Source: Aurantiochytrium sp. KH105
Lineage: Eukaryota > Sar > Bigyra > Thraustochytrida > Thraustochytriidae
Assembly (NCBI GenBank): GCA_003116975.1
Contig: BGKB01000139.1
Coordinates: 130,376-194,375 of the forward strand
Direction: 5' to 3'
DNA: 64,000 nt
Part shown: positions 2,746 to 63,982 of the stretch, piece by piece
Position numbering within the stretch: the stretch's first letter is position 1
Layout of the letters: each line of letters starts with the position of its first letter
The notes under the pieces: model-generated
Databases searched by the model: none
What the model saw: the letters and a program-made list of their open reading frames with translations, nothing else
Told to the model about the DNA's origin: nothing
Translations under genes and position numbers: made by a program

Positions 2746-3215
2746 GCCTAGTATTATAAGTTTGAAAAATACACAAAGGCACGACAATCAATCAAGGTAA
2801 AAGAGACGGTCTGTGTGACGGCTCTTGTTCGCACATAAGATGCCCCTTTATTTCCTGTCAGTGAATGTATAGACATCTTTTAGTAGAAAAGGAACGATTC
2901 GACAAATCACAAGTGTATACTAAGGTCTCCATCGACCGCCCTTCGGTCGGCCACCTTCCCCTGCTCGTGGCCAGATCGCAGTGGGCAGCATCAGCACGTT
3001 GCTTGGCCGAGGGAAAAAAGGAAACCCATTCCAATCAGTCAGTCTCTGCAAGTGCAAGGTTTGCATCCGTAAGTGGAAAAGCCACGGTTGCAAATGAACC
3101 GTCGCAGCGCAAGTGGCGCAAAAGGAAAAACGATCCTTTGGATAGAGCCCGATTCGGCCTCGCGTGCAGCGCGTGCGGCGCGAGAGGCGCGCGCGCGCGC
3201 GGGCGCGGGCGCACG
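2746..3215. other. Spacer and probable promoter/5' leader of the EPC gene
   Basis: This stretch separates two genes on the + strand. It begins AT-rich (TATTATAAG near 2752) and becomes strongly GC-rich, with CGCG runs just before the ATG at 3216. No AATAAA is evident for the upstream gene. The frame of EPC exon 1 is open upstream to 2865, but that stretch is low-complexity and is not taken as coding. Confidence 0.5.
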
Positions 3216-27893: not shown

Positions 27894-30800
27894 TTAGCTC
27901 GCAATGAGCCCATGCGTGCGCAAGCGGCCAAGAACAAGATTCAGTGTAGTGCGTAATTCGTTGTTGAAGTCGCGGAGCTTTTCGCACTCGTCGCGAAGTG
28001 CCATGACCTCGGATTGAGAGGGGGTTGCAGAAAAACTCAACGAACCAATTGTTCCGTCGCCAGGGTCGCTCGTGGTGCCCACATCCGTGACTCCTGCCTG
28101 CTGTGCGCCGATTACTTGAGTGCTCCCGATACTGAGGCTTGTTGCCCCCGAAATAGCGCCCGCATTGAGTGTAACGCCTTCTGCGATCAGATCGCCCCCA
28201 CTGCTCAAGGTGAGAGATGTTGCACCACTGTGAGTGATGGTCGCTGCTGCTTTGCTAAGAGTCACGTCCCCTGTCATGGAAACCGAAGTTACAGACGAAA
28301 GAGCTCCATCATTCACCGTAACGCCATCGACCAGCACACCTCCGCCGCTCGTGATGGAGAGCACCGAATTATCTGCGTGCGTGATACTTTGCGCGCCAGT
28401 CTTGGACAGGACAATGTCCCCACCGGAGTTTGACAACGCGCCACTCATGGCCAAATCGGAAATTTGAGTCATGTCGCCCCCATCAAAGAGAACGTTCTGG
28501 ATTGCAACATTCCCCCCCGAGGAAATGCTCAAGTCTTCATTTGCGCCACCCGTGTGCGTAATGGCTTGCGCCGAGCTCGAGTAAAGCAAAAGATCTCCAC
28601 TGCCCAGAGATACATCTCCATTGGTCGTCCTCAAATTGCCACTTGCAGCGAGTGTGGTCACGGCCGACACGGCTCCAGCGTTGATCGTGACGCCTTCAGC
28701 GACGAGGTCGCCTCCGCTGCTGATCGTCAGCGAAGTTGCGCCACTGTGCGCAATCGTTGCTGCGGCCTTACTCAGCGAAAGATCGTCCGTCATGGCAAGC
28801 GAGCTTACCGAGGACACAGCACCGCCGTTAATGGTCACACCCTCGGCAATGAAGTTTCCGCCACTCGTGATTCGCAGTGACGTAGCCCCGCTATGTGTGA
28901 TGAGGGCTTCGTCGTTACTCATTGTCAGGTCAGCCGTCATGGCAATCGAGCTGGCCGCGGAAAGAGCGCCATTGTTGATGGTGAGTCCGTCCACCACAAC
29001 ACCGCCTCCGCTATTGATCACTAGTTCAGACACATCTGCATGAATAATGCTTTGCGCACCAGGCTTTGACAGAACGAGGTTTCCTCCGGACGCTGTTAGG
29101 TCGCCACTTGCTGCAAATGTCGTGACGGCAGATATTGCGCCTCCGTTCAGGGTAACTCCTTCCGCGACGAGGTCACCACCGCTGCTAATGGTGAGTGAAG
29201 TTGCTCCACTATGTGTGATGGCAGCTGCGGCCTCACTCAGTGTCAGATCATCTGACATGGCCAACGACGTCACGCCCGAAACGGCCCCACCATTCATTGT
29301 CACGCCCTCAGCGATCAGGTCTCCACCACTGCTAATCGTCAGCGATGTAGCGCCGCTATGTGAGATGGTAGCTGCTGCCTTGCTCAACAAGAGATTGTCT
29401 GTCATGGCCAACGAGCTGACGCCCGATACCGCCTCATTGTTCATCGTGACGCCCTCCATGATCACACCTCCACCACTGCTAATGCTCAAAGCAGAGGCAT
29501 CTGCATGCGTAATGCTTTGTGCACCAGTCTTGCTCAAAACAATATCGCCGCCCGAGTTTGTCAAACTCCCACTCATCGATAATGCAGATACTCCAGAGAG
29601 AGAACCGGCGCTGCTCACCGCCACAGACTGAACTTCGACATTTCCATCTGACGAAATGCTCAAATCCTCACCTGGACCGCCTGTATGGATGATTGCCTGC
29701 GCAGTCGTCGACTGCAGTAGAATGTCACCGCCTCCAAGTCTCAGGTCACCCGTCGTTGTTGTCAGATGACCTGTTGCTGCAAACGACGTGACGCCCGAAA
29801 CGGCCCCACCGTTCATTGTCACGCCCTCCGCCACAAGATCTCCGCCGCTGCTGATCGTGAGTGAGGTCGCGCCGCTATGCGTGATGGCTGTGGCTGCCTT
29901 ACTCAGCGTCAGGTCGCCCGACATGGCTAGCGAAGTGACAGAGGAAACCGCCCCACCGTTGATGGTCACACCTTCGGCAACGAGATCGCCTCCACTGCTA
30001 ATCGTGAGCGACGTTCCGCCGCTGTGGGTGATCACAGCCGCTGCCTTGCTCAGCGTCAGATCGTCGGACATGCTAAGCGAAGAGACAGCGGAAAGCGCTC
30101 CGTTGTTCATGGTGACACCATCAACGACAACGCCACCGCCGCTGCTGATTGAAAGCTCAGACCCGTCTGCGTGCGTAATGCTTTGAGCCCCAGCTTTGGA
30201 CAAGACAATATTGCCTCCTGAGTTCGTCATGTCCCCGCTTGCAGAAAGCGTTGTCACCGCAGACATAGCGCCACCATTTATAGTCACGCCCTCCGCGACC
30301 AAGTTGCCGCCGCTGCTGATAGTAAGTGAAGTGGCGCCGCTGTGGGTGATGGATGCTGCTGCCTTGCTCATCGTTAAATCATCGCTCATTGTCAAAGTGG
30401 TAACCGAGGAAACCGCGCCGCTGTTGATTGTTATACCTTCGGCAATGAGAGCGCCCCCACTGCTGATTGTGAGTGAGGTGGCACCGCTGTGAGTGATGGC
30501 GGCCGCAGCCTTGCTCAAAGTCAGGTCGTCCGTCATTGCCATTGTACTGACCCCAGAGACGGCCTGGTTGTTCATTGTCACACCATCGACCACGACGCCT
30601 CCGCCACTACTGATGGTGAGCACGGAGCTGTCCGCGTGTGTGATACTCTGTGCACCCGTCTTGCTCAAAATGATGTCGCCGCCTGAATTCGCCAAACTGC
30701 CGCTCATGGACATCGTCGCAACTCCTGAAACATCTCCGGCATCAAAGATGACACTCTGCACAGCTACATTACCCCCCGACACGATGCTCAAGTCTTCCCC

Positions 30801-33800
30801 TGAACCACCGATATGTGTGATCGACTGTGCCGAGGTTGACTGCAACTCAATGTCGCCGCCTCCAAGTCTCAAGTCACCCGTCGTTGTTGTCAGGTGACTT
30901 GTTGCTGCAAACGACGTGACACCTGAGACGGCGCCAGCATTCATTGTCACGCCCTCCGCCACAAGATCTCCGCCGCTGCTGATCGTGAGTGAGGTCGCGC
31001 CGCTATGCGTGATGGCTGTGGCTGCCTTGCTCAGCGTCAGGTCGCCCGACATGGCTAGCGAAGTGACAGAGGAAACCGCCCCACCGTTGATGGTCACACC
31101 TTCGGCAACGAGATCGCCTCCACTGCTAATCGTGAGCGACGTTCCGCCGCTGTGGGTGATCACAGCCGCTGCCTTGCTCAGCGTCAGATCGTCGGACATG
31201 CTAAGCGAAGAGACAGCGGAAAGCGCTCCGTTGTTCATGGTGACACCATCAACGACAACGCCACCGCCGCTGCTGATTGAAAGCTCAGACCCGTCTGCAT
31301 GCGTAATGCTTTGAGCCCCAGCTTTGGACAAGACAATATTGCCTCCTGAGTTCGTCATGTCCCCGCTTGCAGAAAACGTTGTCACCGCAGACATAGCGCC
31401 ACCATTTATAGTCACGCCCTCCGCGACCAAGTTGCCGCCGCTGCTGATAGTAAATGAAGTGGCGCCGCTGTGGGTGATGGATGCTGCTGCCTTGCTCATC
31501 GTTAAATCATCGCTCATTGTCAAAGTGGTGACCGAGGAAACTGCGCCGCTGTTGATTGTTATACCTTCGGCAATGAGAGCGCCCCCACTGCTGATTGTGA
31601 GTGAGGTGGCACCGCTGTGAGTGATGGCGGCCGCAGCCTTGCTCAAAGTCAGGTCGTCCGTCATTGCCATTGTACTGACCCCAGAGACGGCCTGGTTGTT
31701 CATTGTCACACCATCGACCACGACGCCTCCGCCACTACTGATGGTGAGCACGGAGCTGTCCGCGTGTGTGATACTCTGTGCACCCGTCTTGCTCAAAATG
31801 ATGTCGCCGCCTGAATTCGCCAAACTGCCGCTCATGGACATCGTCGCAACTCCTGAAACATCTCCGGCATCAAAGATGACACTCTGCACAGCTACATTAC
31901 CCCCCGACACGATGCTCAAGTCTTCCCCTGAGCCTCCGATATGTGTGATCGACTGTGCCGAGGTTGACTGCAACTCAATGTCGCCGCCTCCAAGTCTCAA
32001 GTCACCCGTCGTTGTTGTCAGGTGACTTGTTGCCGCAAACGACGTGACACCTGAGACGGCGCCAGCATTCATTGTCACGCCCTCCGCCACAAGATCTCCG
32101 CCGCTGCTGATCGTGAGTGAGGTCGCGCCGCTGTGCGTGATGGCTGTGGCTGCCTTGCTCAGCGTCAGGTCCCCCGACATGGCTAGCGAAGTGACAGAGG
32201 AAACCGCCCCACCGTTGATGGTCACACCTTCGGCAACGAGATCGCCACCACTGCTAATCGTGAGCGACGTCGCACCGCTGTGGGTGATCACAGCCGCTGC
32301 CTTGCTCAGCGTCAGATCGTCGGACATGCTAAGCGAAGAGACAGCCGAGAGCGCCTGGTTATTCACGGTCATGCCATCAACAACGACACCGCCTCCGCTG
32401 TTGATGACAAGCTCAGACGAATCGGCATGCGTGATGCTCTGCGATCCAGCTTTGGAGAGCACCAGATTGCCCCCAGAAGCCGTAAGGTCACCAGAAGCAG
32501 TGAATGTTGTCACCGCAGATACGGCACCGCCGTTGATCGTCACGCCCTCCACAACCAAGTCACCTCCACTACTAATCGTGAGTGAGGAGGCGCCACTATG
32601 CGTTATGGATGTTGCTGCCTTGCTCAGTGCGACATCGCCCGTCATGGCCAACGAGCTTACAGATGACATTGCGCCGCCGTTGATTGTCACGCCTTCCGCG
32701 ACCAAGTCGCCTCCGCTGCTGATCGTGAGTGATGTTGCGCCGCTGTGGGTGATTGCTGCGGCCGCTTTACTCATGCTCAGGTCGTCCGTCATCGCAACAG
32801 AGCTGACAGCTGACACAGCTCCATTGTTGACCGTCACGCCATCGATAGCGACACCACCGCCGCTGGTGATGGCAAGCTCAGACGCGTCCGCATGCGTGAT
32901 GCTCTGAGCTCCGACCTTGCTCAGAACGATGTCGCCGCCTGAGTTTGTAAGGCTTCCACTCATCGATAGCGTAGATACTCCTGATACAACACCCGTATTG
33001 AATGCCACGCCCTCGATTGCCACGTTGCCCCCGGACGTAATGTCCAGGTCCTCGCCAGCGCCGCCAGTGTGCGAGATGGACTGAGCCGTGGTCGATTGAA
33101 GCAGGATATCGCCACCGCCAAGGCTCAGATCGCCCGTCGTTGTCGTCATATGGCTTGTTGCCGAAAGCGTCATGACGCCTGAAACGGCGCCAGCATTCAT
33201 CGTCACACCCTCAGCAACGAGGTCACCGCCGCTGCTGATAGTCAGCGACGTAGCACCGCTGTGAGCGATCGAAGCTGCATCTTTGCTCAGTGTCAAGTCG
33301 TCAGACATGGCCAGCGTCGTCACAGCAGACACGGCTCCGCCGTTGATTATCATACCTTCGGCAACGAGATCGCCTCCGCTGCTGATCGTGAGCGAAGTCG
33401 CGCCACTGTGGGTGATTGCAGCCGCTGCCTTGCTCAGCGTCAGGTCATCCGTCATCGCGATAGAGCTGACCGCAGAGAGTGCCTGGTTGTTCACGGTCAT
33501 GCCGTCAACAACGACACCGCCTCCGCTGCTGATGACAAGCTCCGATGCATCCGCGTGCGTGATGCTCTGCGATCCAGCTTTGGAGAGCACCAGGTTACCC
33601 CCAGAAGCCGTAAGGTCACCAGAAGCAGTGAGTGTTGTCACCGCAGAAAGTGCACCAGCATTAATGGTCACACCTTCCACCACCAAGTCGCCTCCGCTGC
33701 TGATCGTGAGTGATGTTGCGCCGCTATGGGTGATTGCTGCGGCCGCTTTACTCATGCTCAGGTCGTCCGTCATTGCAACAGAGCTGACAGCTGACACAGC

Positions 33801-36800
33801 TCCGTTGTTGACCGTCACGCCATCGATAGCGACACCACCGCCGCTGGTGATGGCAAGCTCAGACGCGTCCGCATGCGTGATGCTCTGAGCTCCGACCTTG
33901 CTCAGAACGATGTCGCCGCCTGAGTTTGTAAGGCTTCCACTCATCGATAGCGTAGATACTCCTGATACAACACCCGTATTGAACGTCACGCCTTCAACTG
34001 CCACGTTGCCCCCGGACGTAATGTCCAGGTCCTCGCCAGCGCCGCCAGTGTGCGAGATGGACTGAGCCGTGGTCGATTGAAGCAGGATATCGCCACCGCC
34101 AAGGCTCAGATCGCCCGTCGTTGTCGTCATATGGCTTGTTGCCGAAAGCGTCGTGACGCCTGAAACGGCGCCAGCATTCATCGTCACACCCTCAGCAACG
34201 AGGTCGCCGCCGCTGCTGATAGTAAGCGACGTAGCACCGCTGTGAGCGATCGAAGCTGCATCTTTGCTCAGTGTCAAGTCGTCAGACATGGCCAGCGTTG
34301 TCACAGCAGACACGGCTCCGCCGTTGATCGTCACACCCTCTGCGATCAAATCGCCTCCGCTGCTGATCGTGAGCGAAGTCGCGCCACTGTGGGTGATTGC
34401 AGCAGCGGCTTTGCTCAGCGTCAGGTCATCCGTCATCGCGACAGAGCTGACCGCAGAGAGCGCCTGATCATTGACCGTCATGCCGTCAACAACGACACCG
34501 CCTCCGCTGCTGATGACAAGCTCAGATGCATCCGCGTGCGTGATGCTCTGCGATCCAGCTTTGGAGAGCATAAGGTTGCCCCCAGAAGCCGTAAGGTCAC
34601 CAGAAGCAGCGAGTGTTGTCACCGCAGAAACTGCACCAGCATTGATGGTCACACCTTCCACTACCAAGTCGCCACCGCTGCTGATCGTGAGTGAGGTCGC
34701 GCCGCTGTGGGCAATTGCTGCAGCCGCCTTGCTCATCGAGATGTCATCCGACATGCCGAGTGTGGTCACTGCAGACATGGCGCCGCCGTTGATTGTCACG
34801 CCTTCCACCACCAAGTCGCCTCCGCTGCTGATCGTGAGTGATGTTGCGCCGCTGTGGGTGATTGCTGCGGCCGCTTTACTCATGCTCAGGTCGTCCGTCA
34901 TCGCAACAGAGCTGACAGCTGACACAGCTCCATTGTTGACCGTCACGCCATCGATAGCGACACCACCGCCGCTGCTGATGGCAAGCTCAGACGCGTCCGC
35001 ATGCGTGATGCTCTGAGCTCCGACCTTGCTCAGAACGATGTCGCCGCCTGAGTTTGTAAGGCTTCCACTCATCGATAGCGTAGATACTCCTGATACAACA
35101 CCCGTATTGAACGTCACACCTTCAACTGCCACATTGCCGCCGGACGTAAGATCCAGGTCCTCGCCAGCGCCGCCAGTGTGCGAGATGGACTGAGCCGTAG
35201 TCGATTGAAGCAGGATATCGCCACCGCCAAGGCTCAGATCGCCCGTCGTTGTCGTCATATGGCTTGTTGCCGAAAGCGTCGTGACGCCTGAAACGGCGCC
35301 AGCATTCATTGTCACGCCCTCAGCAACGAGGTCGCCGCCGCTGCTGATAGTCAGTGAAGTTGCGCCGCTGTGAGCGATCGAAGCTGCATCTTTGCTCAGT
35401 GTCAAGTCGTCAGACATGGCCAGCGTCGTCACAGCAGACACGGCTCCGCCGTTGATTGTCATACCTTCGGCAACGAGATCGCCACCACTGCTGATCGTGA
35501 GCGACGTTGCGCCACTGTGGGTGATTGCAGCCGCTGCCTTGCTCAGCGTCAGGTCGTCCGTCATCGCGACAGAGCTGACCGCAGAGAGTGCCTGATCATT
35601 GACCGTCATGCCGTCAACAACGACACCGCCTCCGCTGCTGATGACAAGCTCCGATGCATCCGCGTGCGTGATGCTCTGCGATCCAGCTTTGGAGAGTACC
35701 AGGTTGCCCCCAGACGCAGTGAGATCGCCAGAAGCAGCGAGTGTTGTCACCGCAGAAAGTGCACCAGCATTGATGGTCACACCTTCCACCACTAAGTCGC
35801 CACCGCTGCTAATTGTGAGTGAGGTCGCACCGCTGTGGGTGATTGCTGCGGCCGCCTTGCTCATCGAGATGTCCTCCGACAGCGCAAATGAGGTCACGCC
35901 GGAGACGGCCTGGTCATCCATCGTGACTCCATCGACAATCACGACTCCGCCAGAAGAAAGAGTGAGTGCAGAAACATCAGCATGTGATATGCTCTGCGCT
36001 CCAATTTTGCTCAAAAGAATGTCACCGCCCGAGTTTTCAAGCGTGCTAGTCATGGACACCGTCGTGATCGAGGATAGCGCCCCAGCATTGAGCGTCACTC
36101 CTTCAACGACTACATTGCCTTCAGAGACAAGGCTCAAGTCGTTGCCAGCTCCACCCGTATGCCGTATCGCCTGACCCGCGCTTGCCTCAAAGACAACATC
36201 TCCGCTCTGAAGCAGAACGTTACCCGTGCTGGAAGAGAGATCATCCTCCAGAGCAAGCGTCGAAATGCCCGACACAGCTCCAGCATTCATTGTCACGCCC
36301 TCGGCAATGAGATTTCCGGCGCTAGTCAAGGTCAAGGAAGTGGACCCCGTGTGGGAGATCAACGCGGTTGTTTCCGTGAGAATGAGGTCGTCCGCCATGC
36401 TCAGAGTGGTCACACCTGATACACTGCCGCCGTTCATAGTAACGCCTTCCGCAATGAGATTACCTCCGGACAAAATACTGAGCGAAGTTGCTCCCGAATG
36501 CGATATCACTGCCTCTCCGTTGCTCAACGTAAGATCGCCCGTCATCGCCAGAGCCCCTAATGCCGAGATTGAACCACCGTCCATCGTGATCCCTTCAACG
36601 ACTACTCCACCCCCGGAAGAAATGCGCAATTCCGAAGCGTCTGCGTGCGTGATACTCTGCGTGCCGGAACTGCCAAGGACTATATCACCGCCCGAATTCA
36701 AGAGATCCCCCGACTGCGAAAGTGTCATAATGCCCGACATTGCGCCAGCGTTCAGAGTTACACCCTCTGCAATGAGATCCCCAGCGCTGCTGAGAGAAAG

Positions 36801-39800
36801 GGACCCCGTCCCCGTATGGATAATTGAAGCAGCCACTTTCGATAGCGTCAGATCGTCGGACATGGACATCGAGGTTGCTCCCGAAACCGCCCCATTGTTC
36901 ACGGTCAAGCCTTCTGCAATGAGACTGCCCCCACTGCTAATGGTCAGCGAGCTTGCGCCACTGTGTGTGATTGAAGCTGCTGCCTTTTCGAGCAAGATAT
37001 CGCCCGTCATCGACAGTGAGCTTACTGCCGAAACCGCTCCGCTGTTGACAGAGATACCGTTAAGAACAAGGTCTCCGCCAGAGCTTATACTCAGCGCAGA
37101 GGTGTCCGCGTGCGTGATACTCTGCGCGCCCGCCTGGGTTAGCAAGATATTACCGCCAGAATTAGTCAGAGAGCTGGTCATGGTCATCGTCGAGACACCA
37201 GTCAGGCTGTTGCCATTCACAGTAACTCCTTCAACAACAACGTTGCCACCAGAGTGAATGTAAAGGTCTGCGGCCGCTCCCCCTGTATGGGCAATGGACT
37301 GTGTCGTACTCGCTTGCAGCAAAAAATCGCCCTCTCCAATTGTCAGGTCACCTGTACTCAGGCCAATCGCTCCGCTTGCGTCAAGCGTGTTAACGCCGGA
37401 GATAGCCCCGCCGTTCATTGTCACGCCCTCGGCGACAAGATCCCCGCCGCTGCTGATCGTCAGCGAAGTTGCGCCGCTGTGGGTGATTGCTGCAGCCGGC
37501 TTGCTCATCGTCAGATCGTCGGAAATTCCGAGCGTTGTCACAGCAGACACAGCTCCCCCATTGATTGTGACGCCCTCTGCAATCAGGTCGCCAGTACTGC
37601 TGATGGTGAGAGACGTTGCGCCGCTGTGACTTATAGCGGCTGCTGCTTTACTCAGCCTTAAATCGTCCGTCATCAGCATCGAGCTTATGCCCGACATAGC
37701 ACCTTCGCTCACGGTTGCGCCATCAACGACGACGCCGCCTCCACTGCTAATGACTAGCTCAGAGGCGTCCGCGTGCAGAATGCTTTGCGAGCCAGATTTG
37801 GAGAGGACCAGATTTCCTCCTGTGTTCGTCATGTCCCCGCTCGCCGACAACGTTGTCACGGCGGACATTGCTCCTCCATTGATCGTCACGCCCTCGGCAA
37901 CAAGATCACCTCCGCTACTTATTGTAAGCGATGTTGCTCCCGTGTGCGCAATGGCGGTGGCAGCTTTGCTCAAAGTGAGATCGTCCGTCATGGCGAGTGA
38001 GGTCACTGCCGAGACAGCGCCGCCATTCAAGGTCACACCTTCTGCAACTAGATCCCCTGCACTGCTTATTGTGAGCGATGTCAAGCCAGTGTGCTTGATG
38101 GAAGCCGCATCTTTAGTCATGGTGAGGTCATCTGACAATGACACTCCATCGACACCAGAGAGAGTGCCGTCGACCATGGTTACTCCATTGACAATGACGG
38201 CGGCTCCGCTCGAGATAGAAAGATCCGAGGCATCCGCGTGGACAATGCTTTGCGCTCCGACCTTACTGAGGAGAATGTTGCCCCCTGAATTCGCAAAATC
38301 CCCGCTCATGGAGAGCGATGATAGAGCAGACAATGAGCCCGAATCAAAGAGGACGTTCTCAATTGCAACATTTCCCCCAGAAGTGATGCGAAGGTCTTCG
38401 TTAGCTGCCCCTACGTGCGTGATCGACTGTGACGTTGTTCCCTGCAGCAAAATGTTGCCACTGCCAAGGCTCATGTCTCCTGAAGCGCTCGATAGCGTCC
38501 CGCTGGCTGCAAAGCTACTAACAGCCGAGACGGCGCCGTTGTTGATTGTGACGCCCTCTACGACCAAATCTCCTCCACTGCCGATCGTAAGCGAGGTCGC
38601 GCCGACATGAGTTATTGCTGCAGCGTCTGCGGTCAGCGTCAATGCATCGGTGACGCTGATTGTCGTCACAGCCGAAACAGCGCCGTTGTTGATGCTCACA
38701 CCCTCGGCAATCAAGTCGCCGCCACTGCTCAAGGTCAATGAGCCAGCTCCGGCGTGCGCAATCGCAGCACTGCTGCTCGTCATAGTGAGATCATCTGACA
38801 TACTCATCGAGCTCACTGCAGACACCGCCCCTTCGTTTAAGGTGATACCTTCGACAACTACGCCTCCACCGCTGCTGACAATGAGCTCAGAAGCATCTGC
38901 ATGCGTGATACTCTGTGCTCCAACGTTGGAAAGTAATAAACTTCCCGCAGAAAGAGTAAAGTCCCCGCTTGCGGAAAGCGTCGTCACGGCGGAAACGGCG
39001 CCACCATTGATGGTAACGCCTTCGGCAACGAGATCACCCCCGCTGCTAACAGACAGCGAGGTTGCTCCAGTATGCGCGATTGACGCCACATCCTTGCTGA
39101 GCGTCAAATCGTCGGTCATACTCAAGGTGGAAACGGCCGAGACGGCCCCGCCATTCAGAGTTACGCCCTCGGCCACGAGGTTGCCACCACTACTGATCGT
39201 CAACGAAGTCGCCCCGCTGTGGGTAATGGCTGCAGCCGCCTTGCTCATGGAAAGGTCATCCGTCATGATCAGCGAGCTCACTCCGCCGACAGCACCGTCG
39301 TTCATTGTCACGCCATCTACTGCGACGCCTCCTCCGCTGGAAATGATAAGCTCCGAGGCATCCGCATGCACAATCGACTGCGCGCCAACGCCGCTCAGCT
39401 CCAGATTTCCGCCGGTATTCTGGAAATTGCCTGACATTGAAAGCGTTGTCACAGAAGATATCTCGAAAGCGTCTAAGACCACGCCCTCAATGACTACGTT
39501 TCCACCCGACGAAATGCTCAAGTCCTCGCCCGCCGCACCCGTATGCGTGATTGACTGCGAAGTGCTTGACTGCAACAAAACGTTTCCACTATCGAGCAAC
39601 AAAGCGCCTGCTGAGCTCCCAAGGTCTCCGCTTGCAGAAAATGTGGTCACTCCCGAAACAGCGCCACCATTCATTGTAACACCCTCCGCAACGAGGTCTC
39701 CGGCGCTACTGATGGTGAGAGAGGTTGCGCCACTGTGAACAATTGTCGCAGACGCCTTGCTAAGTGTCAAGTCGTCGGTCATACTCAGCGAGCTGACGGA

Positions 39801-51800: not shown

Positions 51801-54800
51801 CTCGACAGTGACGCCGTCCACAACCACGTTGCCTCCGGAGGAGAGGATGAGATCCTGTCCCGAGCCGCCCACGTGCACGATGCTCTGAGCAGAGCTCGAG
51901 CTCATGAGAATGTCGCCAGTCGAAGTGGAGATGTCGCCGTCGACTTGCAAGTCAGTTAGAGAGGACACGCTTCCGTCTTCGAAGACGACTCCCTCGACAT
52001 CAACGTGTCCATCGGAAGAGATGAGGAGACCCTGACCGGCCGCGCCGGCGTGCGAGATACTCTGAGAGCTCGATGAGCCGAGCAACACGTTTCCAGAAGA
52101 CAGCGTGAGGTCGGCAGAGGCTGCAATGGAGGATACCGACGAGATCTGGCTGCCGTCAAAGACAACATCCTCGATCTTGACTGTGCCGGAGACTGATGAA
52201 ACATGCAGTCCTGTCGTTCCAGAGTGCTCTACGACTGCTGTAGGCTGCGTCATGGAGAGGGTGTCGGTCATTTCGAGCGAGGAAACTCCAGTGAGAGCGC
52301 CATTGTTGTGCGTGACGGCATCAACAACGACATTGGCTCCAGAGGAGATTGCAAGATCCTGACCAGCGCTTCCCGTGTGGGAGATGCTCTGTGCCAAAGT
52401 ACTTTGCAGCTCAATATTACCAAAGGCGAGTGTGAGAGGCCCCGTTGCTTCTATTTGACTCGCGCCGTGAATTGACCCAGAATTAAAGGTGACCCCGTGT
52501 ACTACAACATTTCCTCCCACAGAGGTAACAGCGAGATCGGCACCAGCAGCGCCCTCGTGTTCAATGCGCTGAGCTGCAGAAGATGAAAGCTTGATATCGC
52601 CAGCAGCAAAGGTGGCGTCTCCAGAAAGCGCGAGATCATTAACGCCGGAGACCGTACCAGCATCGAAAACAACACTTTCCAGAATGACAGTCCCAGATGC
52701 GGAGGCGATGTCAAGACTTGTTGCCCCAGTGTGTGATATGGCTGTCGTGTCGCCAGTAAGCGTGAGAGAGTTTGTTAAATCCAACGCAAGCAGCCCATTG
52801 ATGGTATTGGCGTTCATAACAACCCCATTAACAACCACATTGCCTCCAGAGGTAATATCAAGATCCGCACCAGAGGCACCTGTGTGAGTAATGGATTGTG
52901 CACTTGAGGATGCAAGGTATATGCTGCCCGAGGAAAGACTGACATCTCCGCTCGTGGACAGCGAAGAAACCCCTGAAAGGGCGCCTCCATTGTGCGTAAC
53001 CCCATTCACCACAACGTTACCTCCTGAGGCGATTGTTAAATCTTTGCCAAGACCGCCCACATGCGTGATGCTTTGTGATGCTGCTGCGTTGAAAAGAAGA
53101 TCACCGGTTGCGCTTGCAATATTTCCCGACATGGAGATACTCGACACACCCGAAAGAGCTCCCGCGCTTGCTGAAACTCCGTTTACAACAACGTTACCGC
53201 CCGAAGAAATCGTCAGGTCCTCACCACTCGCTCCCACATGAAGTATGCTTTGAGATCCAGTAGAGTCGAGCCTAAGATTTCCTCCCGACGCAACCAAGTC
53301 GCCAGAAAGCGCAATATTTGTCGCGTCAGATATTGCTCCTCCCGCGAAAGACACGTCTTCAACCTGTACTTGCCCTGATGATGAAGAGATGGCGAAATTC
53401 CCGCTGCCCGAGTGAATGATAACCGGGCTGGTGCCCGTCAACTCAACAGTCGCGTCAATGCCAATACTTGAGACCCCAGAGATAGAGCCCGAATCGAATG
53501 ACACTCCTTCCAGGTCAACCGTTCCAGACGTCGAGCTGATCTGAAGGTTGCTCGCGCCCGTGTGCGTCAGCATTGATAAGTCTTTTGACATTTGCAAGTC
53601 ACCCGTCATGCTTAGAGTCGAAACTCCATGGAGTGCAGAGCCATCAACCGTGACGGATTCAAGCACCAAGTTTCCACCCGAGGAAAAGCTAAGATCATCT
53701 CCTGCGCCGCCAGAGTGCACAATACGTTGCGCTGACGTGCTCTGAAGCTCAATATCACCGCTTGCAACCTGAAGGGACCCACTCAGGGCTAAAGCGCCCA
53801 CGCCGGAGACATCGCCATCAGAAAAGACCACGGACTCAATTCCAACTGTTCCACTGGTCGACTCAAGGGAAAGTGAGGTTGCCCCCGAGTGAACAATTTG
53901 AGCCGTATCGGCTGTCATTGTAATGTCCGCGTTGACCTCTGCAGCACCAAGGCCCATGACATTGCTCGAATCGAAGGTTATACCTTCAACAACAACATTG
54001 CCTGCAGTTGATACGACATTGAGATCAAAACCATCTGCCCCCGTGTGCCGAATGGTCTGTGCCCCGGTGCCTGGCAAAAGAATGTTTCCCGATGCAATGG
54101 TTAAATCATCTGTCATTTGTATGGATCCAACAGATTCGAGGTCCCCGTTGCTCACAGTAACGCCATCTACCACAACGTTTCCGCCGGAGTTCACTTGAAG
54201 GTCCGCACCGGTCCCTCCAGTATGCAAAATGCCCTGCGTACTGGTGAGACCCAAGATCAAGTTGCTGCTCATCATAAGCGAAGTAACCCCGGAGACAGCT
54301 CCATTCGTAACCGTCACATCATCGACCACGACGTTGCCGCCCGAAGACACCGTCAAGTCTCCGCCAGCGCCGCCCCCCGTGTGCAAAATGCCCTGCGCTC
54401 CTGTCGAGCTCAATACCACATTTCCAGACCCACTTGTCAAGTCCCCGCTCAGGGACATCGAAGCAGCCTGCGATATATCGCCTCCCGCAAAGACCACGTC
54501 TTCAACCTGCACTGTACCAGACGTCGAAGACACCCACAGCGACCCACTGCCTCCGTGCTCGATCTTGGCGCTGTCCTTGCTCAGACTCAAGTCATCCGTC
54601 ATGCTCAGTGAGCTCACGCCAGATACCACATTGCCGTCAAATGTCGCGCCCTCCACGATCACGCTTCCGCTCGTTGACGTCACGCTCAGCGAGCTGGCAC
54701 CGCTGTGCTCGATCACGGCGACATCTGCTGGCAGTCCCAGACTCGACACACCGTCGACATTGCCGCTCTTCACAGTCATGCCCTCAACGACGACGTTGCC

Positions 54801-57800
54801 TCCACTCGAAGTCACGAGAAGATCTTCGCCAGCTCCGCCCTGGTGCGAGATACGCTGTGCTAGGGTGCTCGAGAGAACCATGTCTCCGCTCTCTAGCGTC
54901 GCACTTCCGCCCATGGTCAGATCTGCGACGCCCGAAACGTCGCCNCGAAGACGACTCCCTCGACATCAACGTGTCCATCGGAAGAGATGAGGAGACCCTG
55001 ACCGGCCGCGCCGGCGTGCGAGATACTCTGAGAGCTCGATGAGCCGAGCAACACGTTTCCAGAAGACAGCGTGAGGTCGGCAGAGGCTGCAATGGAGGAT
55101 ACCGACGAGATCTGGCTGCCGTCAAAGACAACATCCTCGATCTTGACTGTGCCGGAGACTGATGAAACATGCAGTCCTGTCGTTCCAGAGTGCTCTACGA
55201 CTGCTGTAGGCTGCGTCATGGAGAGGGTGTCGGTCATTTCGAGCGAGGAAACTCCAGTGAGAGCGCCATTGCTGTGCGTGACGGCATCAACAACGACATT
55301 GGCTCCAGAGGAGATTGCAAGATCCTGACCAGCGCTTCCCGTGTGGGAGATGCTCTGTGCCAAAGTACTTTGCAGATTGATATTGCCAGAGGTCAGCTGA
55401 ACGCTTCCTGAAGTGGAGTGTATATTCCCGGACATGGCAATCGATCCGACGTTGGAAACGTCGCCGTTGTTTATGGTGACGTCTTCGGCAATAAGATCAC
55501 CTGCAGAGCTTATTGTTAGCGAGGTTGCGCCCGTATGCTGAAGCGCTGCAGTGTCCTGAGAAATAGACAAAGGCCCGGCCGCGGAGAAGGCGGTGACACC
55601 CGACATCGATCCTTCGTTGAAAGTCACAGACTCTACGACGAGGTCCCCGCCTGAACGCAATGTAAGGCTTGACGAGTCTCCATGTATGATTTCCTGATTT
55701 CCAGCTTTTGCGAGAAGAATATCACCATTGCTGTTCGTCAGATCTCCCGCCATCGTGAGTCCAGCCACACCGGCGACCTCGCCTTCGTTAACAGTGACGC
55801 CATCAACAATGAGGTCTCCGCCAGACTCGAGAGCGAGTGCGCTCGTGTCGGCGTGGACAATACTTTGCGGCCCTAGTCGCGCCAAAGCAATGTCTCCTGT
55901 ATCGACAGTGAGATCTCCGGACATGTGCAGCGTCGACATCCCCGTAAGTGCCCCCTCTGCCATCGTCAGTCCTTCAACGACAACGTTCCCGCTCGAGGAC
56001 ACGATCAAATCGGCACCTAGATTACCAGCGTGTGTGATACCTTGCGATCCCAACGAGGTGAGAAGCACATCACCACTCGTCAATGTAATATCACCACTCA
56101 TCTCGAGTGAGGTGACCGCTGACATTGCACCTGACTCGATGGTGACGCCGTCGACAACGACATTGCCGCCCGATTCGACCACGAGGTCTGCAGCTGCGCC
56201 GCCTGCGTGCTCAATGCGCTGCTCTGCTCCAGCGCTGAGGCGTAAATAACCTGCTTCGAGCGTCACGTCTCCCGTGGTTGAAGTGATGTGCGATGAGACG
56301 TCCAGCGTGGTCACGGCAGAAACAGCACCGCTGTTCATTGTAACGCCTTCGAGTACAAGATTTCCACCCGATGAAACGTCCAGGTTTGTTACTCCTGAAT
56401 GAACAATGCTTGCCACGTCGTCGCTGAATGTGAGCGTACTCGACATCGCGAGAGTTGTGATGGCTGAAACTGCTCCCTCATCTAGCGTTACGCCCTCCGC
56501 GACAAGCCCGCCACCGGAAGCGATGACCAGCGGTGACGCATCCGTGTGCTGGATGGTTTGCTGGCCAGTACCAAGCAAGTCGAGGGTCCCACTCATGGTC
56601 AGCGTTGTGATGCCACTCGCAGCACCTGCTGCCAGGCTCACACCCTCCGCGATAATACCTCCTCCCGAGGAGATGGTGAGCGCGGAGGCATGATTGTGTT
56701 CGATCGTCTGGGGGCCGGATGCGCTCAGTGCAATGCCTGAGCCAGATGCATCCAATAATCCGCTCATGCTCAGAGATGATACCCCGGCAACAGCAGCATT
56801 CTTCATCGTGACACCTGCAACAATGACGTTTCCTGCGCCAGAGTCGATTGTGAGTGACGTCGCTCCAGAATGGACAATCACAGCCTGATCGTTGGATAGC
56901 GCGAGGTCGCCAGACATGGAGACATCCACAGCGCCGAGAATATCTCCGTTGCTCATTGTGACACTGTCAACAATAACGTTGCCTCCAGATACGATTTCTA
57001 AATCTTCACCGGCGCCCCCAGCATGTGAGATTTGCTGCAAGGTGGAGCTTGAGAGCTCTATGTTGCCCGTTGATGACGAAAAAGTACCGGACAGACTCAA
57101 GTCTCCAACGCCGCTCACCGTGCTGCCATCAAAGATGACGTTTTCAACAGACACTGAACCACTAGAAGAAGACACCGCCAGGGAACTAGCTCCTTCGTGA
57201 AGGATAGTCGCCAAGTCTGCATCAAGGGAAATCGACCTGACGCCAGACATTGCGCCATCGTCAACGGTTACAGAATCGACCACAACATTGCCACCAGAAG
57301 CAAGCGTCAAGTCTTGGCCCGACCCACCGGTATGCTGGATGGTCTGCGGTGAAGAGCTCGTGAGCAGTACGTTGCCTGCAGACGAGGTGAGATGACCGTC
57401 CATCTCTACATCTCCCACAGCACTCATGGAGCTTCCGGAAAAAGTGATTTGCTCGACAGCGACTGTGCCCGAAGATGATGCAATCGTAAGCCCGCTACTA
57501 CCTTCGTGCGTGACCACTGCGTCCGCGGCACCCAGCGAAAGCGTCCCACTCATTGTCATGTCCGTGACGCCATTCATCACTCCGCCTTCAAACACCACAG
57601 CCTCAACCGCGACGCTTCCGCTACTCGACTCGATTGTAAGCGAAGTTGTACCCGTGTGAGTAATGCGTGCCTCGTCACGCGCAAGAGTGAGGTCACCATC
57701 CATTGTGAAATCGTTGACGCCAGAAAGAGCACCTTGATTCATCGTCACCCCGTCCACAACAACATTTCCGCCCGATATGACACTAAGGTCCTGACCAGGT

Positions 57801-60800
57801 CCGCCAGCGTGCGCCAGACTTTGTGCATTGCTCGATGAGAGCAAGAAGCCTCCGTCTGTGCTTGTCAGATCCCCTGACATATCAAGGGACGATATGCCTT
57901 GCATTGCGCTCGCTTTGACTGTGACGCCATTCACGAGCACATTGTCTCCCGAGCTGATCTCCAGATTCTCGCCCTCGCCCCCTGTGTGTGCGATGCGCTG
58001 CGTGGATGATGCGGTCAGAAGAACGTCGCCCGACAGCATGGCTGACCCAATGCCGCTGATCTCATCGCCCGCAAAGACGACGTCTTCTACATGCACCGAA
58101 CCAGCCGTCGAGGTGATTTCCAAAGCAGTGGCACCTGCGTGAGTAATATGGGAAGAGTCCTTGTTGAGCGTAAGATCGCCAGACATGGTCATGTCCGAAA
58201 CAGACGAAATTGCCGCGCCCTCGAAGACAACGTCCTCGATGCGCACGGCACTGCTTGTTGACACAATCGTGAGTTCCGTTGCTCCCGTGTGGTCGATGCG
58301 CGCGTCATCCTTTGACAGTGTCAAGTCGTCGCTCATCTGCAGGGTGGACACATCTGACACAGCAGAAGCATCAAAAGATACGCCCTCGACAATTACTTTG
58401 CCCGCCCCAGTGGACTCAATGACCAAATCAACACCAGTTCCACCTGCATGACGCAGGACTTGCGAGCCCGAGCCGGAAAACAGGACGTCGCCGCTCGAAA
58501 CTGTCAAGTCTCCTGCGAGATCAAACGACCCAACGCCGGAAATGTCCCCCGTATCAAAGGCGACGCCTTCAACAAGTACTGTTCCGGAGGCAGATGCAAT
58601 AGAAAGCGAGGTGGCGCCGGTGTGGCTGATGGATGCGCTTGCGTGACTCAGCGAAATGTCCCCCGTCATACTCAGAGACGAGACAGATGAGACCGCACCG
58701 CCATTAAAGATCACATCCTCGAGCTGAACGGGACCCGCATCAGACAGGAGGCTCAGCCCCGTCGCTCCCGTGTGGCGAATGGTCGAGTCAGCTTGGGTCA
58801 AGGTAAGATCATCTGTCATTTCGAGAGTGGATACTTGCGAGATCGCATTATCCGAGAACGTGACACCCTCCACAAGGACACTTCCCGAGGAGCTGGCGAT
58901 GGACAGCTTCGAAGTTCCCGAGTGCATAATATTTGCAATGTTCGAAGTCAGCTCCAAGTCTGCAGACATGGTGAGTCCAGAAACTCCAGAAACCGCCGCA
59001 TTATCAAGCGTAACGCCGTCGACAATGACATTTCCCGAGCTTGAAGAGATGATCAAGTCTTCTCCCACGCCTCCAGCATGAGTGATGCGCTGCTCTGTGG
59101 CGGCTCCAAACATGAGGTCCCCAGAGGCAAGCGTTAGATCTGCTGACATGGCAAGCGAGGAAACCGAGGAAATGGCATCGCCTTGGAACACAACATCCTC
59201 CACTGCAACGGTACCCGAAGAGGAAATGATCTGAAGCGAGGTGGTGCCAACGTGCTCAATCTGCGCGGTGTCGCCAGAAAGCTCCAGCGTCCCTGACATG
59301 GACTGACTTGTTACTCCATCGAGCGCACCACTGCGAATCGAGACGCCGTTGACCACGACATTGCCGCCGGAAGTGATCGCCAAATCTTGTCCCGAACCGC
59401 CCACATGAGACACGGTCTGAGAACTCGAAGACGTAAATGCGATGTCGCCCCCGTTCAGTCGAAGATTGGCCGACATGTCGAGTTGAGAGACCCCTGCAAC
59501 AGCAGCACCATTCACAGTGATATCTTCGAGAGAAATGCTCCCACTTGTCGATTGAATCGCAAGCGAGCTTGCTCCAGTATGTGTAATTGAAGCGGCGTCC
59601 GCACCGATGCGCAGAGGCCCGTCCATATGCACTTGTGCAACGCTCGAGATGTCTGCGCCGGCAAAGGTCACATCTTCAACAGATACGGTCCCTGAAGCCG
59701 AGGCGATGGCCAAGCCTGTGGCGCCAAGATGCGAAAGGCTTGCTGCATCATCCACGAGCTCGATAGTGCTTCCGACCTCGGCGCTTGATATGCCAGACAC
59801 TGCACCGCCCGAGAAGACGACGTCTTCCACCCGCACGCTTCCTGAAGTTGACTCAATACGGAGCGAGGTGGCACCAGTGTGCTGAATGGTTGCGTCATCT
59901 GCAGCGAGCGTAAGGGCATTGTCGATGGCGGCGCTTTGAATGTCGCGCATAACCTGGCCATCCACGGTGATACCCTCTATAACAACGTTTCCGGCAATGC
60001 TTGTCACCGTCAGATCACTCCCTGCGTCCCCAAGATGAGTAAAGGCTTGCGCCGAAGTCGAAGTGAGCTGCACGTTGCCGGAAACTTGCACATTTTGAAG
60101 GCCTGTGAGGTCGGTGCCATCAACAGTAATTCCTTCAACGGTGACTGCGCCTGCTTGCGACAACAGATGAAGCCCCGTGGTGCCCGTGTGTCGAAGGACA
60201 GCGGCGTCCATGGACATGGTCAGCTCGTCACTCATTGTCAGTGTCGTCACAGAAGACATGGCAGAACCTGAAAAGTGAACGTTTTCAACAACAACGTTTC
60301 CTGCCGTACTGACGAGATGGAGATCCCCGCTCGGTCCACCGCTGTGTCGAATTCGCTGCGTGGCAGAATTCTCCATGAGAATATCTGCGCTCACCGCCAA
60401 AGACCCGACGTTGGCGACGTCAGATCCAGCAAAGGTCACACCCTCCACAGCCACTGTACCTGCTGCCGAAGCGATGTTGAGACCATTTGCCCCGGCATGT
60501 TGAATGTTTGCATCATCGTTTGTAAGTTCAAGAGTCCCCGAAAGCGACGCGCTTGTGATGCCAGAAAGTGATCCTCCGCTGACCAAGACGTCCTCGATCT
60601 GAACGTCACCACTGGAGCTGTGTACATGGAGATCCCCGCTTGACCCATCGTGGCGGATTTCCTGGGTAGCATCAGCAGCAAAAAGGAGATTTCCGGTTGT
60701 CAAGGTGCCATCGCCAGGTACACTCATACTGCCAGAGGCAAAGGTGACCTCTTCAGCAATGACATTGCCATTTGTAGAGACAATCAAAAGATCCTCACTG

Positions 60801-63800
60801 CCGACGCCACCCTGATGCCGGATCTGCTGCGTTGTATCAGCCTCAAAGACAAGATTGCCAGCAGCAAGAACGACGTCAGTCGGAACATGGACATTGCCGT
60901 TGGCCATTGTCACGCCATCCACCTGAACATTTCCAGCTGTGGAGGCAATGAGTAGGTCCTCGCCGGGCCCGCCTTGATGCGTTAGACGCTGAGCGGCAGA
61001 GTTCGTCAAAGAGATGTCGGAAGGTAACGTGAGAGTTCCAGCGTCCAAAACAACGCCCTCGACAATGACCTCGCCTGCAGAAGAAGAAATCTCAAGCCCT
61101 TGCGTGGATTGGATGCTTGCGCTCGATACGGTCGCGTCGAATTCCACTTGCTGTAGCTGAGAGAGATTTGGTCCGGAAAAAACAACGTCTTCAACGGAGA
61201 CAGTCCCCGTGGTAGACTCGATTCGTAATGGACCCGCAGAGGTCTCGAGAGTTTGCGTATCGAGCCTGAGCGCATCATCGAGAACGAGTGCGCCGCTGTC
61301 GTACCGTAAGGCTGCGCTTGAAAGCAGACCCCCCACACCGTACACGGCAACGTATCCGTTTGGTTGCGAAGTCGCCCGAAGATCGAGGGCGGCAAATTCA
61401 TAGTTGCCTATGTCAAGATCGGCAGAGGCAGTAAGCTGCGTGACGCCAAGTATCTGAGCACCCCCAGCGACCTCGCGCCAGTTCGCGCCATCAAAAACCA
61501 ACAAAACTGCGCCCCCGGGAGCAATGACGAAGTCACCGGAGGTAGCTTCTTCGTCGTTGTTCCGAATGACGAGAATCTGGCCCGCCGCAGCGCCTGCAGA
61601 GGTGATTTGGAGGTCATTGACCTCCACAGCCCCATCGCTGGAAATTTGTACAAAACTTGTATCTGCAGAGAGAACAATCGTCGCTCCTGCAGGAACGGAG
61701 ATTCCTGTGAGTATGACGTTTGCATCAGCTGTAAAGGTGCCTGAAGCCGTGATAGGAGCCCCATCCTGTGTTGCAATGGATTCAGCAGTAAGGATGGGTC
61801 CGAAGCCGGGCTCAATGCTTCCTGCACGTAATGAGCCCGTTGCTGTGATATCGGCAAGATTTCCGGTAGTGAGAACGAGCCCAATTGTGATGTTGGATGG
61901 AAGCACGAGGACTGCGTCTTGGTCTTCTGGGGGACCCTCTATTCGGAAAACGACTTGGAAGTCGTCGCCGCGAGCCTGCTTAAAAATGAGCGGCTCTGTG
62001 CCGGTAATAACGGTATCAAAGCGGGCCGCATCATTATGTCCTGCGAGACCAAAGACAAGATTGCCAGGGAGATACGTTGTGCTGTCGGCATCGCGATTAT
62101 TTTCAACATGAACATCGCCTTCAGAGATAAGCTGATTTCCTGTGATACCGAGTCCGCCTTCGATGGTCAGGTTGTGTATGAGTTTGAGATGCATTTGCTC
62201 GAAGTTGAGACGCGTGAGATTGATGGCCCCGACGGTAAGATACTCGATAAAATTGGGCGGCGTGAGCTCGCGGCTAACGATGGTCGCGTTTGTGATGTCG
62301 ATTGTGTCGAGAACATTGATCCGACTTGCGTCAAGGGCCCCCTCGATGCGCGCCTCCGAGGTCAGAAGACTGCCTGCGCGAATACTGTTGTCGAGACCAA
62401 TGTCAATATCTCCAAAGCCTTCTTCAATCGTACCCGTTTGAATGCTACCTCCAACGTTGAGATTCCCATCAACGTCGGCATCGTGCGCGGCTCGCAAGAG
62501 GGAAGTTTCGACGATGGTGGCATCAGGCGTGACGCGAATCAAAGTCTCGGACCCGATCTTCGTCTGAAGTTCGTCCGAGGTTCGCACAATAGCCGCGCGA
62601 TCTGTGTCGCTACTTGACGTGTTGTACGCAAGCTCGAGTGCGGCGCCTTCACTTGTGGTGCTTACTTGAACAAAAGGTCGGTCTTCGTTGACAGCGAGTG
62701 AGGGAGCGATAATCACTCGTGGTGACTCTACGGTCCCTGAAGCAGTAAGATGACTCGAGACTGTCAACGTCTCATCGGCACCGTCGCTTTCGTCGCTCTT
62801 TTCAATGACAAGAGTCGTTTTGTTTGAAAGAGCCAGAGGCCCGTCGAGCTTGGCGTCGCCCGTGATATGCAGTTGCGCCCCTGGTGTGCGGGTTCCAATA
62901 CCGACTCGTCCCTCCTGAGCGGCATCACTAAGCGTAATAACGCCGTTCAGACCGGGATTGACGATGACATCGTTGCGGGCCCGGACCTCCAGCTCACTGT
63001 CAGTCGAACGGAGATAGCCTGTGAGTCGAAAGCTGTCATCCAGCATGTGCTCGCCAAATTCCAACGCAGTGTGTGTGTTTGTGCTGGCGGCGGCATTATT
63101 GGCAGAAGTTGGGGCAGAGGTAGTGGTCTGTAGGCTTCTACTCTTTGGGGTGACGGAAAGCCTCCAAGGTAGAGACCACTTGGACGTCGATTTTTGCTTT
63201 GGTACATTTGTCGCAGATTTCTCGCCGGTGCTTTGCTTTTGGGACTCCAGCTGGCGTCTCGCGCGACGTTGCTGTGTGGTCTCCGAACCTTCGACTTGCT
63301 TGGTCGTGAGCCGTATTGTGCTCGAGAATGGGTCGGCGTCTCGTGCAGAAACCTCGAGCTCAACGTCTGGGCTGAGACTGTGAATTCCGATGCTCCCGTC
63401 TGGCGTCACTGTCGAGGCCTCCTGAATGAGGAGATTTGCAACATCAAATTCGATTCCGTAATACTGCCGCAACAACACCGACATGACCCACAGGACGAAG
63501 AGGAGAGACAGTGAAAAGACAGCGCATGTGAGCACGAGACGGAGGGCGTGCTTGCGGTACCTGTAGGGGTTGTACGAGAGATCTCGTGCGGTGAGAAGCT
63601 TTTCTGCTTCTTTGTCAGGAAGAATTCGTGGCGCGCGCCCTCTACTGGCCATTCTTCGCAAGAGTGTCGCGGCTCGTGCTCCTCTCCGCTTGTCCCCAGT
63701 TTCTCTCTCGTCTTTTTTGGCCTCGCCATTCTCCTCCTCATTATCGATCGGATTGTCTCCGGTTTTGGTCTTCTCGTTGGAATTGAGGACGGCGCCCGTG

Positions 63801-63982
63801 CCAGCCTCGAGGAGCGCCTCTTTCAGGATCTCCTTTTCGTCCCCTACGAGATCTTTCATCTTTTTTGACCCTGCGACCGGCGACTGTTCTGCCTTTGGCC
63901 CGGGTCCATCCCAGGCCGTTGCTTGTGGCTCGACACCGACGGATGACTTTTTCCTGCCGCCAAAGATTCTGCGTTTCCCCAT
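27894..63982 (-). CDS. Giant repetitive type II membrane protein (>12,000 residues), two assembly gaps inside
   Basis: One reading frame runs from MGKRRIFGG (63982) to a TAA at 27894, interrupted only at single ambiguous bases at 54945 (apparent frame change) and 51690 (frame kept). The segments give 3021 and 9006 residues. N-terminus: ~145 charged cytosolic residues, then a membrane helix at ~147-170 preceded by RYRKHALR, so type II topology. Residues ~190-920 form a non-repetitive ectodomain with N-glycosylation sequons. It includes GIGTRTPGAQLHITG (~361-375) and VFDGANWREVAGG, which resemble bacterial/phage tail-fibre proteins. From ~920 onward come about 200 repeats with a core ITHSGxxxLxISSxGxVxVExV. 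The last ~40 residues (ALRDECEKLRDFNNELRTTLNLVLGRL) form a coiled coil. The repeat region almost lacks Cys, Trp, Tyr, Pro and Arg. No intron is visible. A surface adhesin, scale or ectoplasmic-net filament is inferred; no family is recognised. Confidence 0.85.
28642..43023 (-). repeat. Higher-order tandem array, period 1128 bp (variants 981 and 1131 bp)
   Basis: The homologous point in successive A units lies at 28642, 29773, 30901, 32029, 33157, 34138, 35266, 36247, 37375, 38503, 39631, 40762 and 41893. Spacings are 1128 bp (seven times), 1131 (three) and 981 (two), all multiples of three. The full period is A-B-C-C-B-C-C = 66+57+49+49+57+49+49 = 376 residues. The 981-bp form lacks one 49-residue C unit. 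Copies at 29773-30900 and 30901-32028 differ at only a few bases. The right end (43023) is approximate. Confidence 0.9.
51012..51689 (-). repeat. 678-bp near-identical duplication R1, copy a
   Basis: Matches 54267-54944 at a constant offset of 3255 bases with no indel and only a few substitutions. Both copies stop at the same base, directly before an ambiguous N. This is the signature of contig ends in a collapsed repeat. Confidence 0.85.
51690..51690. other. Ambiguous base N: probable compressed assembly gap 1
   Basis: A single N falls at the end of R1 copy a. In the protein the usual unit text is cut: the C-like unit goes from TSLAVS straight to GDVSGVADL, missing the VxVExV half. Sequence is therefore absent here even though the frame happens to continue. 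Confidence 0.75.
51980..52409 (-). repeat. 430-bp duplication R2, copy a
   Basis: Matches 54946-55375 at a constant offset of 2966 bases. Here R2 is separated from the N at 51690 by 289 bases, whereas copy b starts immediately after the N at 54945. Confidence 0.85.
54267..54944 (-). repeat. 678-bp near-identical duplication R1, copy b
   Basis: Partner of 51012-51689. Differences are scattered substitutions such as CCATTCGTAACC for CCATTCGCAACC. It ends directly before the N at 54945. Confidence 0.85.
54945..54945. other. Ambiguous base N: probable compressed assembly gap 2
   Basis: This N joins the end of R1 directly to the beginning of R2. At the other locus 289 bases (a length that is 1 modulo 3) plus an N lie between them. 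The missing sequence explains the only frame change in the giant gene. Confidence 0.8.
54946..55375 (-). repeat. 430-bp duplication R2, copy b
   Basis: Partner of 51980-52409. The two diverge abruptly after the TACTTTGCAG word at 52409/55375, marking the true edge of the duplicated segment. Confidence 0.85.

Follow-up and report, generated by a model that had tools for sequence, protein, structure and literature searches.

The window analysed here (64,000 nucleotides, C139:130376-194375, in the 76-Mb, 367-contig assembly of Aurantiochytrium sp. KH105) holds on its minus strand a giant gene for a membrane-anchored, repeat-rich protein, whose repeats and C-terminus recur on a mastigoneme-type protein of the same genome. 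The open reading frame (ORF) listing gives a minus-strand frame of 3021 residues (63982-54917), directly followed by another of 9006 residues (54914-27894); in the remaining four frames across 27894-63982 the longest open runs are only 176-375 codons. Most likely the two frames encode one protein, as assembled of 12,036 residues, 1.17 MDa and isoelectric point 4.1, which bears out the mass of over 1 MDa given in a preliminary description of this DNA. The unbroken, intronless frame of about 12,000 codons proposed there holds in part: both long ORFs are present and the open frame is consistent with an intronless gene, but the phase changes at an N at 54945. Upstream of the ATG at 63982 lie 180 open codons, with a second in-frame ATG 60 codons up, beyond the window. 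The features of the gene are as follows.

27894..63982, minus strand: giant gene, in-window part, two frames joined at an N gap (ORFs); the frame goes on 5′ past the window
63548..63982, minus strand: charged N-terminal tail, 145 residues from ATG 63982, with 32 K/R and 24 D/E (composition)
63467..63547, minus strand: single transmembrane helix (hydropathy; bounds set by eye)
61247..63466, minus strand: ectodomain with the fibre-like motif VGIGTRTPGAQLHITGDA, extending to about residue 912 (sequence inspection)
61475..61618, minus strand: Phage_depo_C-like stretch (phage depolymerase C-terminal beta sandwich), best E 5.8e-5
54946..61246, minus strand: repeat region, 5′ part; 42 matches to the repeat hidden Markov model (HMM) across the entire first frame
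54945..54945, no strand: single N with phase change, probable collapsed assembly gap (frame and self-comparison)
51690..51690, no strand: single N, second gap, phase kept (frame and self-comparison)
28131..54944, minus strand: repeat region, 3′ part, with a higher-order period of 376 residues; 166 repeat-HMM matches
27897..28130, minus strand: C-terminal module, needle-like and with a helix of 34 residues, common to an EGF-headed paralogue (PHROG, genome search, model)

The break at 54945 is probably a collapsed gap within a local duplication, the gene being one frame. DNA self-comparison (at least 92% identity over at least 250 bases) paired 54260-54944 with 51004-51689 (99.0% identity) and 54946-55392 with 51980-52426 (98.7%), and of the four stretches three border an N. 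The copy at 51.7 kb contains 289 bases (51691-51979) that 54945 lacks, a number equal to 1 mod 3. It is because of the copied flanks, and because these 289 bases match the phase change, that we favor a collapsed gap; a false duplication made by the assembly is another possible source of the flanks. Two more self-match pairs, of about 1.1 kb each, were found (93.8 and 95.1% identity). Given the probable collapsed gap, the true gene length is uncertain, by an estimated some hundreds of bases or more. No second copy of the giant was found in the assembly, its first 930 residues and the tested left flank being single-copy, as is the tested right flank save for a match of about 90 bases at 75%. The stretches tested on C139 (window 6301-10700 and L001:3400-9000) are single, and several other genes occur in allele-like pairs; the single-copy C139 region may be homozygous or collapsed, or its second haplotype may be missing.

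The architecture proposed previously (charged tail, one membrane helix, fibre-like ectodomain, repeats and C-terminal helix) is supported by the sequence. The strongest hydrophobic helix lies at residue 149 (Kyte-Doolittle 2.54; next best 1.62), and we infer it to be a type II signal anchor that would leave the charged tail in the cytosol. Ahead of the repeats, the ectodomain has six N-glycosylation sequons among its 34 Asn. The sole R-x-K/R-R sequence in the first frame, which was the one scanned, is RARR at residue 240 (window 63254-63265), beyond the membrane helix; it is a possible furin-type site able to release the fibre. About 208 repeat units were counted in total (the 42 and 166 HMM matches, i-E<1), mostly of 49-64 residues, with repeat-to-repeat distances chiefly of 49, 50/51, 57-59 and 64 residues. 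The second frame, low in Cys, Trp, Tyr, Pro, Lys and Arg, matches itself best at a lag of 376 residues (33% identity). Count and lag agree with the roughly 200 repeats and 376-residue period first described. In the AlphaFold model of the final 167 residues, 128-161 form the C-terminal helix (block means of the predicted local distance difference test, pLDDT, 83-95).

We compared 11 repeat blocks of 266-381 codons, all within 28476-44483, in 55 pairs. The proportion of synonymous differences (pS) ranged from 0.12 to 0.81 and was near saturation (0.63-0.81) in 50 of the 55, with nonsynonymous differences (pN) of 0.02-0.35; dN/dS could be computed for 36 pairs, giving 0.05-0.29, and not for the other 19. 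Because synonymous sites are mostly saturated while the protein is conserved between blocks, this comparison indicates a translated gene, its repeat protein under long purifying selection. Five pairs are less diverged (pS 0.12-0.59), and therefore some repeat copying is more recent. Such selection argues against an assembly artefact, a pseudogene or an endogenous viral element, an explanation that draws on the phase change, on the two Ns with copied flanks and on the phage-like modules described below, and that we consider very improbable. The roughly 12,000 codons are stop-free except at the N junction, the neighboring genes carry TBCD, EDR2/PH and SAM domains, and the ectodomain and repeats are unmatched in phage records, with none confirmed in viral contigs. 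A viral or pseudogene nature was rejected on the selection and the neighbors.

Sequons (N-x-S/T) are absent from 183 aligned repeat units, against 58.3 +/- 5.1 expected from 300 column-preserving shuffles, and the whole repeat region of 11,020 residues contains one. The mirror motif is not depleted in the aligned units (129 against 118). Among 96 residue pairs tested at sequon spacing, N-to-S/T shows the strongest depletion, and at spacings 1, 3 and 4 it is near expectation (ratios 0.88, 0.84 and 0.99). The absence of sequons from the repeats suggests that the shaft passes through the endoplasmic reticulum.

The relative that informs on function is a paralogue with an EGF head, present as frames of 3,040 and 3,655 residues at C136:76404-85547 and C120:109279-120267, the longer spanning 638 N bases. 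These two were matched when the giant's C-terminal 167 residues were searched against the genome (58% identity over residues 21-166), and a repeat query at E<=1e-3 found the giant, C136 and C120 genes only. The C-terminal modules of giant and paralogue are 62% identical over 78 residues. Thus the preliminary statement that the repeats resemble no family stands for the databases, with nothing significant in Pfam, PHROGs, NCBIfam or PDB sequence searches, but not for the genome itself, where the same repeats and C-terminus are carried by this mastigoneme-type protein. Both paralogue copies start with a hydrophobic, signal-like segment (by hydropathy and inspection). The C136 copy, which was the one scanned, scores for EGF_Teneurin (1.9e-14) and EGF_2 (7.2e-9), and it matches six chains of PDB 9ufe (1.4e-35 to 1.1e-25); all six PDB sequences at E<=1e-3 are these chains, named tubular mastigoneme protein or OCM3/5/6. 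With the OCM proteins we presumptively group SIG1/Mas of stramenopiles.

The C136 and C120 genes are probably two alleles differing in repeat number, because their flanks match and dS is 0.05 across the first 945 codons. Aligned to each other, the two 24-kb stretches share their longest matches at 93.4, 95.6 and 96.0% identity (8,868, 4,520 and 2,116 bases), and two shorter matches on the other side are at 86-89%. Two separate genes were considered and set aside, the high identity of these stretches favoring alleles. The unequal repeat number of the alleles, one of which has the 638-base N gap, would make hair-fibre length variation within one diploid genome possible. Across the genome the EGF head is matched in 31 places, which fall at 20 loci with the two paralogue alleles counted, and several of these loci look like allele pairs. 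One Ocm-type EGF match lies about 40 kb 5′ of the giant (C139:234958-235650); of the two pieces matched there, one contains a single stop. The paralogue repeats have zero sequons where simple shuffling leads one to expect 29-34. The 891 residues ahead of them (32 Asn) likewise have none, so the paralogue's deficit is not confined to the shaft.

As this nearest genome relative bears the same shaft and tip behind an Ocm-type EGF head, we propose a role for the giant in flagellar hairs, the sole functional link found for it. Our reading, to which we give a little less than an even chance, is of a type II membrane protein of about 12,000 residues that would form a long, mostly unglycosylated beta-fibre, probably as a homotrimer, in the flagellar-hair system of the zoospore. 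Phage fibres fold from a C-terminal module. By analogy, folding of three chains would begin at the C-terminal module and run toward the membrane, producing a stiff rod: the C-terminal helix and needle-like module would probably start trimer folding and make the distal tip, the roughly 208 repeats would be the shaft, and the N-terminal helices would hold the fibre in the membrane. The fibre could be a membrane-rooted hair, or a link between mastigoneme and flagellar membrane. The dimensions of T4 tail fibres lead us to guess at a rod of some hundreds of nm to about 1 μm for 11,000 residues. Tubular mastigonemes of Phytophthora are about 1.5 μm long and 0.03 μm wide (excerpt of PMC9068220). Labyrinthulomycete zoospores carry mastigonemes (excerpt of PMC11412368), and a putative mastigoneme protein declines as Aurantiochytrium zoospores settle (excerpt of PMC12221091).

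The giant appears to be tied to the mastigoneme protein family but is not a member: it is without the EGF head and so is not itself an Ocm/SIG1 protein. The giant has its membrane helix at residue 149, behind the charged tail; its residues 1-930 match only themselves in the genome at E<=0.01. By a published description (excerpt of PMC12223298), three Phytophthora mastigoneme proteins have EGF-like domains and a signal peptide but lack a membrane helix, so that a membrane anchor would fill a role left open by those three. A membrane-anchored fibre whose shaft and tip recur on a mastigoneme-headed protein is a good candidate for root, link or companion hair.

The anchor in place of the EGF head could also point to a fibre or adhesin of the vegetative-cell surface or the ectoplasmic net, one that merely shares shaft and tip with the mastigoneme protein. 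Shaft modules are easily shuffled. Moreover, among the candidate proteins of the Aurantiochytrium ectoplasmic net are extracellular and membrane proteins that lack clear homologues (excerpt of PMC12221091). We rate this as rather unlikely: nothing was found that ties the giant gene to the net, and the sole relative in which repeats and tip recur bears a head of mastigoneme type. Less probable still is a non-tubular flagellar hair, a stand-alone membrane-rooted fibre outside the tubular mastigoneme. Phytophthora zoospores do carry non-tubular hairs alongside tubular ones (excerpt of PMC9068220), and the giant is membrane-anchored and fibre-like, but the tip and shaft common to the Ocm-headed protein suggest assembly with the tubular hairs.

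Several points weigh against the flagellar-hair fibre that we prefer. The gene and protein are known here from sequence alone. The mastigoneme link is through shaft and tip, not head, and shaft modules could be shuffled between proteins of different use. No EGF domain was found by Pfam in the five pieces of the giant scanned, and residues 1-930 had no PDB match to Ocm. The paralogue has, at E 0.031, a seventh PDB match, 4z80, and this one is no mastigoneme protein. Needle similarity in PDB is weak (E 0.018, or 0.0098 with a three-row profile). In the repeats, K-G at spacing 1 (0 against 42.9) and K-Q at spacing 3 (0 against 25.1) are fully depleted too; linkage between repeat types probably depletes these other pairs, and part of the sequon deficit may share that cause. 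Modeled as a single chain by AlphaFold, the repeats give a poor result (mean pLDDT 64, hardly any strands paired), and in the C-terminal model the helix is the one confident part, 94 of the 167 residues scoring below 50. A fold search with the repeat model as query gave 0 PDB matches and a best viral E of 0.63; tail-fibre and YadA-like phage proteins are among the viral matches, at E 0.6-10, which counts as no evidence. With models poor and nothing significant in the fold searches, beta-fibre and trimer are unproved.

The phage-like signals are each weak, and mutually consistent. The giant's C-terminal region matches the PHROG tail needle phrog_1219 at E 1.6e-5 (4e-4 for the 78-residue module alone), and the paralogue's module matches it at 9.4e-4. 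The giant's module matched 65 phage records at E<=1 (best E 0.01, 38% identity). The Phage_depo_C-like stretch is below the gathering cut-off of PF25692 (23.9 bits against 25; 20.1 bits in a longer piece). A query of window 61003-61900 also matched C85 and C83 in the genome (5.9e-5 and 1.6e-4), where fibre-like frames of 1,231 codons with a hydrophobic N-terminus are found (L057:2335-6027 and L058:2516-6208, both minus strand); the Phage_depo_C-like region aligns with the C85 protein (BLASTP 8e-10). The C85 copy, the one scanned, ends in an S74 chaperone domain (PF13884, 9.6e-16). In the PDB, myelin regulatory factor (7dc3, 1.3e-4) is a further match of its S74 region. PF13884 matched at 10 places in the genome, none of them on C139, and in this the giant departs from S74 phage fibres. 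Residues 217-323 of the paralogue (L036) match PHROG head-closure and baseplate-wedge profiles (1.3e-10 and 1.9e-8).

A phage origin was rejected for the ectodomain, with no match in 50,697 phage records at E<=0.1, and for the repeats, whose first roughly 1,100 residues had none in the same records at E<=1e-3; nor did paralogue residues 451-950 at that threshold. Pattern stretches in viral contigs numbered 1 for the ectodomain, 94 for the C-terminal 167 residues, 23 for the repeats and 44 for the C-terminal 78 residues, and those in prokaryote genomes 500 for the 78-residue module, none of them confirmed. That phage-fibre-like modules were taken into a stramenopile flagellar hair, with the EGF-headed copy as mastigoneme fibre and the giant as root or hair-length ruler, is a speculation that we hold doubtful.

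Long frames are not confined to this locus, and the earlier wording "exceptional for any eukaryote" was too strong here. The TBCD neighbor is one single frame of 1474 codons, and frames of up to 5,831 codons have PfaA-like (polyketide-synthase-like) matches, which are below the family cut-off here and are found at that level in 11 of 14 control genomes also. Together with the mastigoneme genes, these PfaA-like frames fit a labyrinthulomycete origin of the DNA without proving it. C159 and C208 have allele-like open frames of 14,562 and 15,312 codons with Ser/Gly/Ala-rich repeats and two Peptidase_S74 matches each. The C159 frame was read at 155001-162500 (L059, L061) and ends outside that stretch; the giant's repeats had no match to either frame at E<=1e-3.

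If our reading is right, the gene would be, to our knowledge, among the longest continuous reading frames of eukaryotes, and it would connect modules like those of phage fibres with the tripartite hairs characteristic of stramenopiles. It would also name a candidate for how the hairs may root in the membrane, the three Phytophthora proteins having no membrane helix in the excerpt cited. Lumenal fibre shafts elsewhere may be easier to recognize by such a sequon deficit, which is simple to read from a genome. Among the literature matches listed, which cover few subscription journals, we recognized no description of a giant thraustochytrid fibre gene or of phage-fibre modules in mastigonemes, and neither 9UFE nor OCM5 was named. 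The preliminary interpretation is supported in part, and the shaft and tip linked to mastigonemes give a better functional lead than the adhesion, scales or ectoplasmic net suggested at the outset.

Compared with S74 phage tail fibres and tailspikes, the giant differs in its repeats, which are unmatched in phage records; the fibre-like motif and the Phage_depo_C-like stretch are common to it and the S74 protein of this genome (C85/C83). Its C-terminal module aligns weakly with the last 80 or so positions of the P22-type tail needle (gp26) profile, and both end in a long helix. Scores are weak, no further needle domain was found, and the giant has a eukaryotic anchor and its roughly 208 repeats. 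To the tubular mastigoneme proteins of PDB 9ufe it is related through the EGF-headed paralogue only. With that paralogue it shares the repeat shaft, the C-terminal module, a long single frame and sequon-free repeats, whereas the paralogue has a signal-like N-terminus and EGF head where the giant has a charged tail and membrane anchor, and is far smaller, at 3,040 and 3,655 residues against about 12,000.

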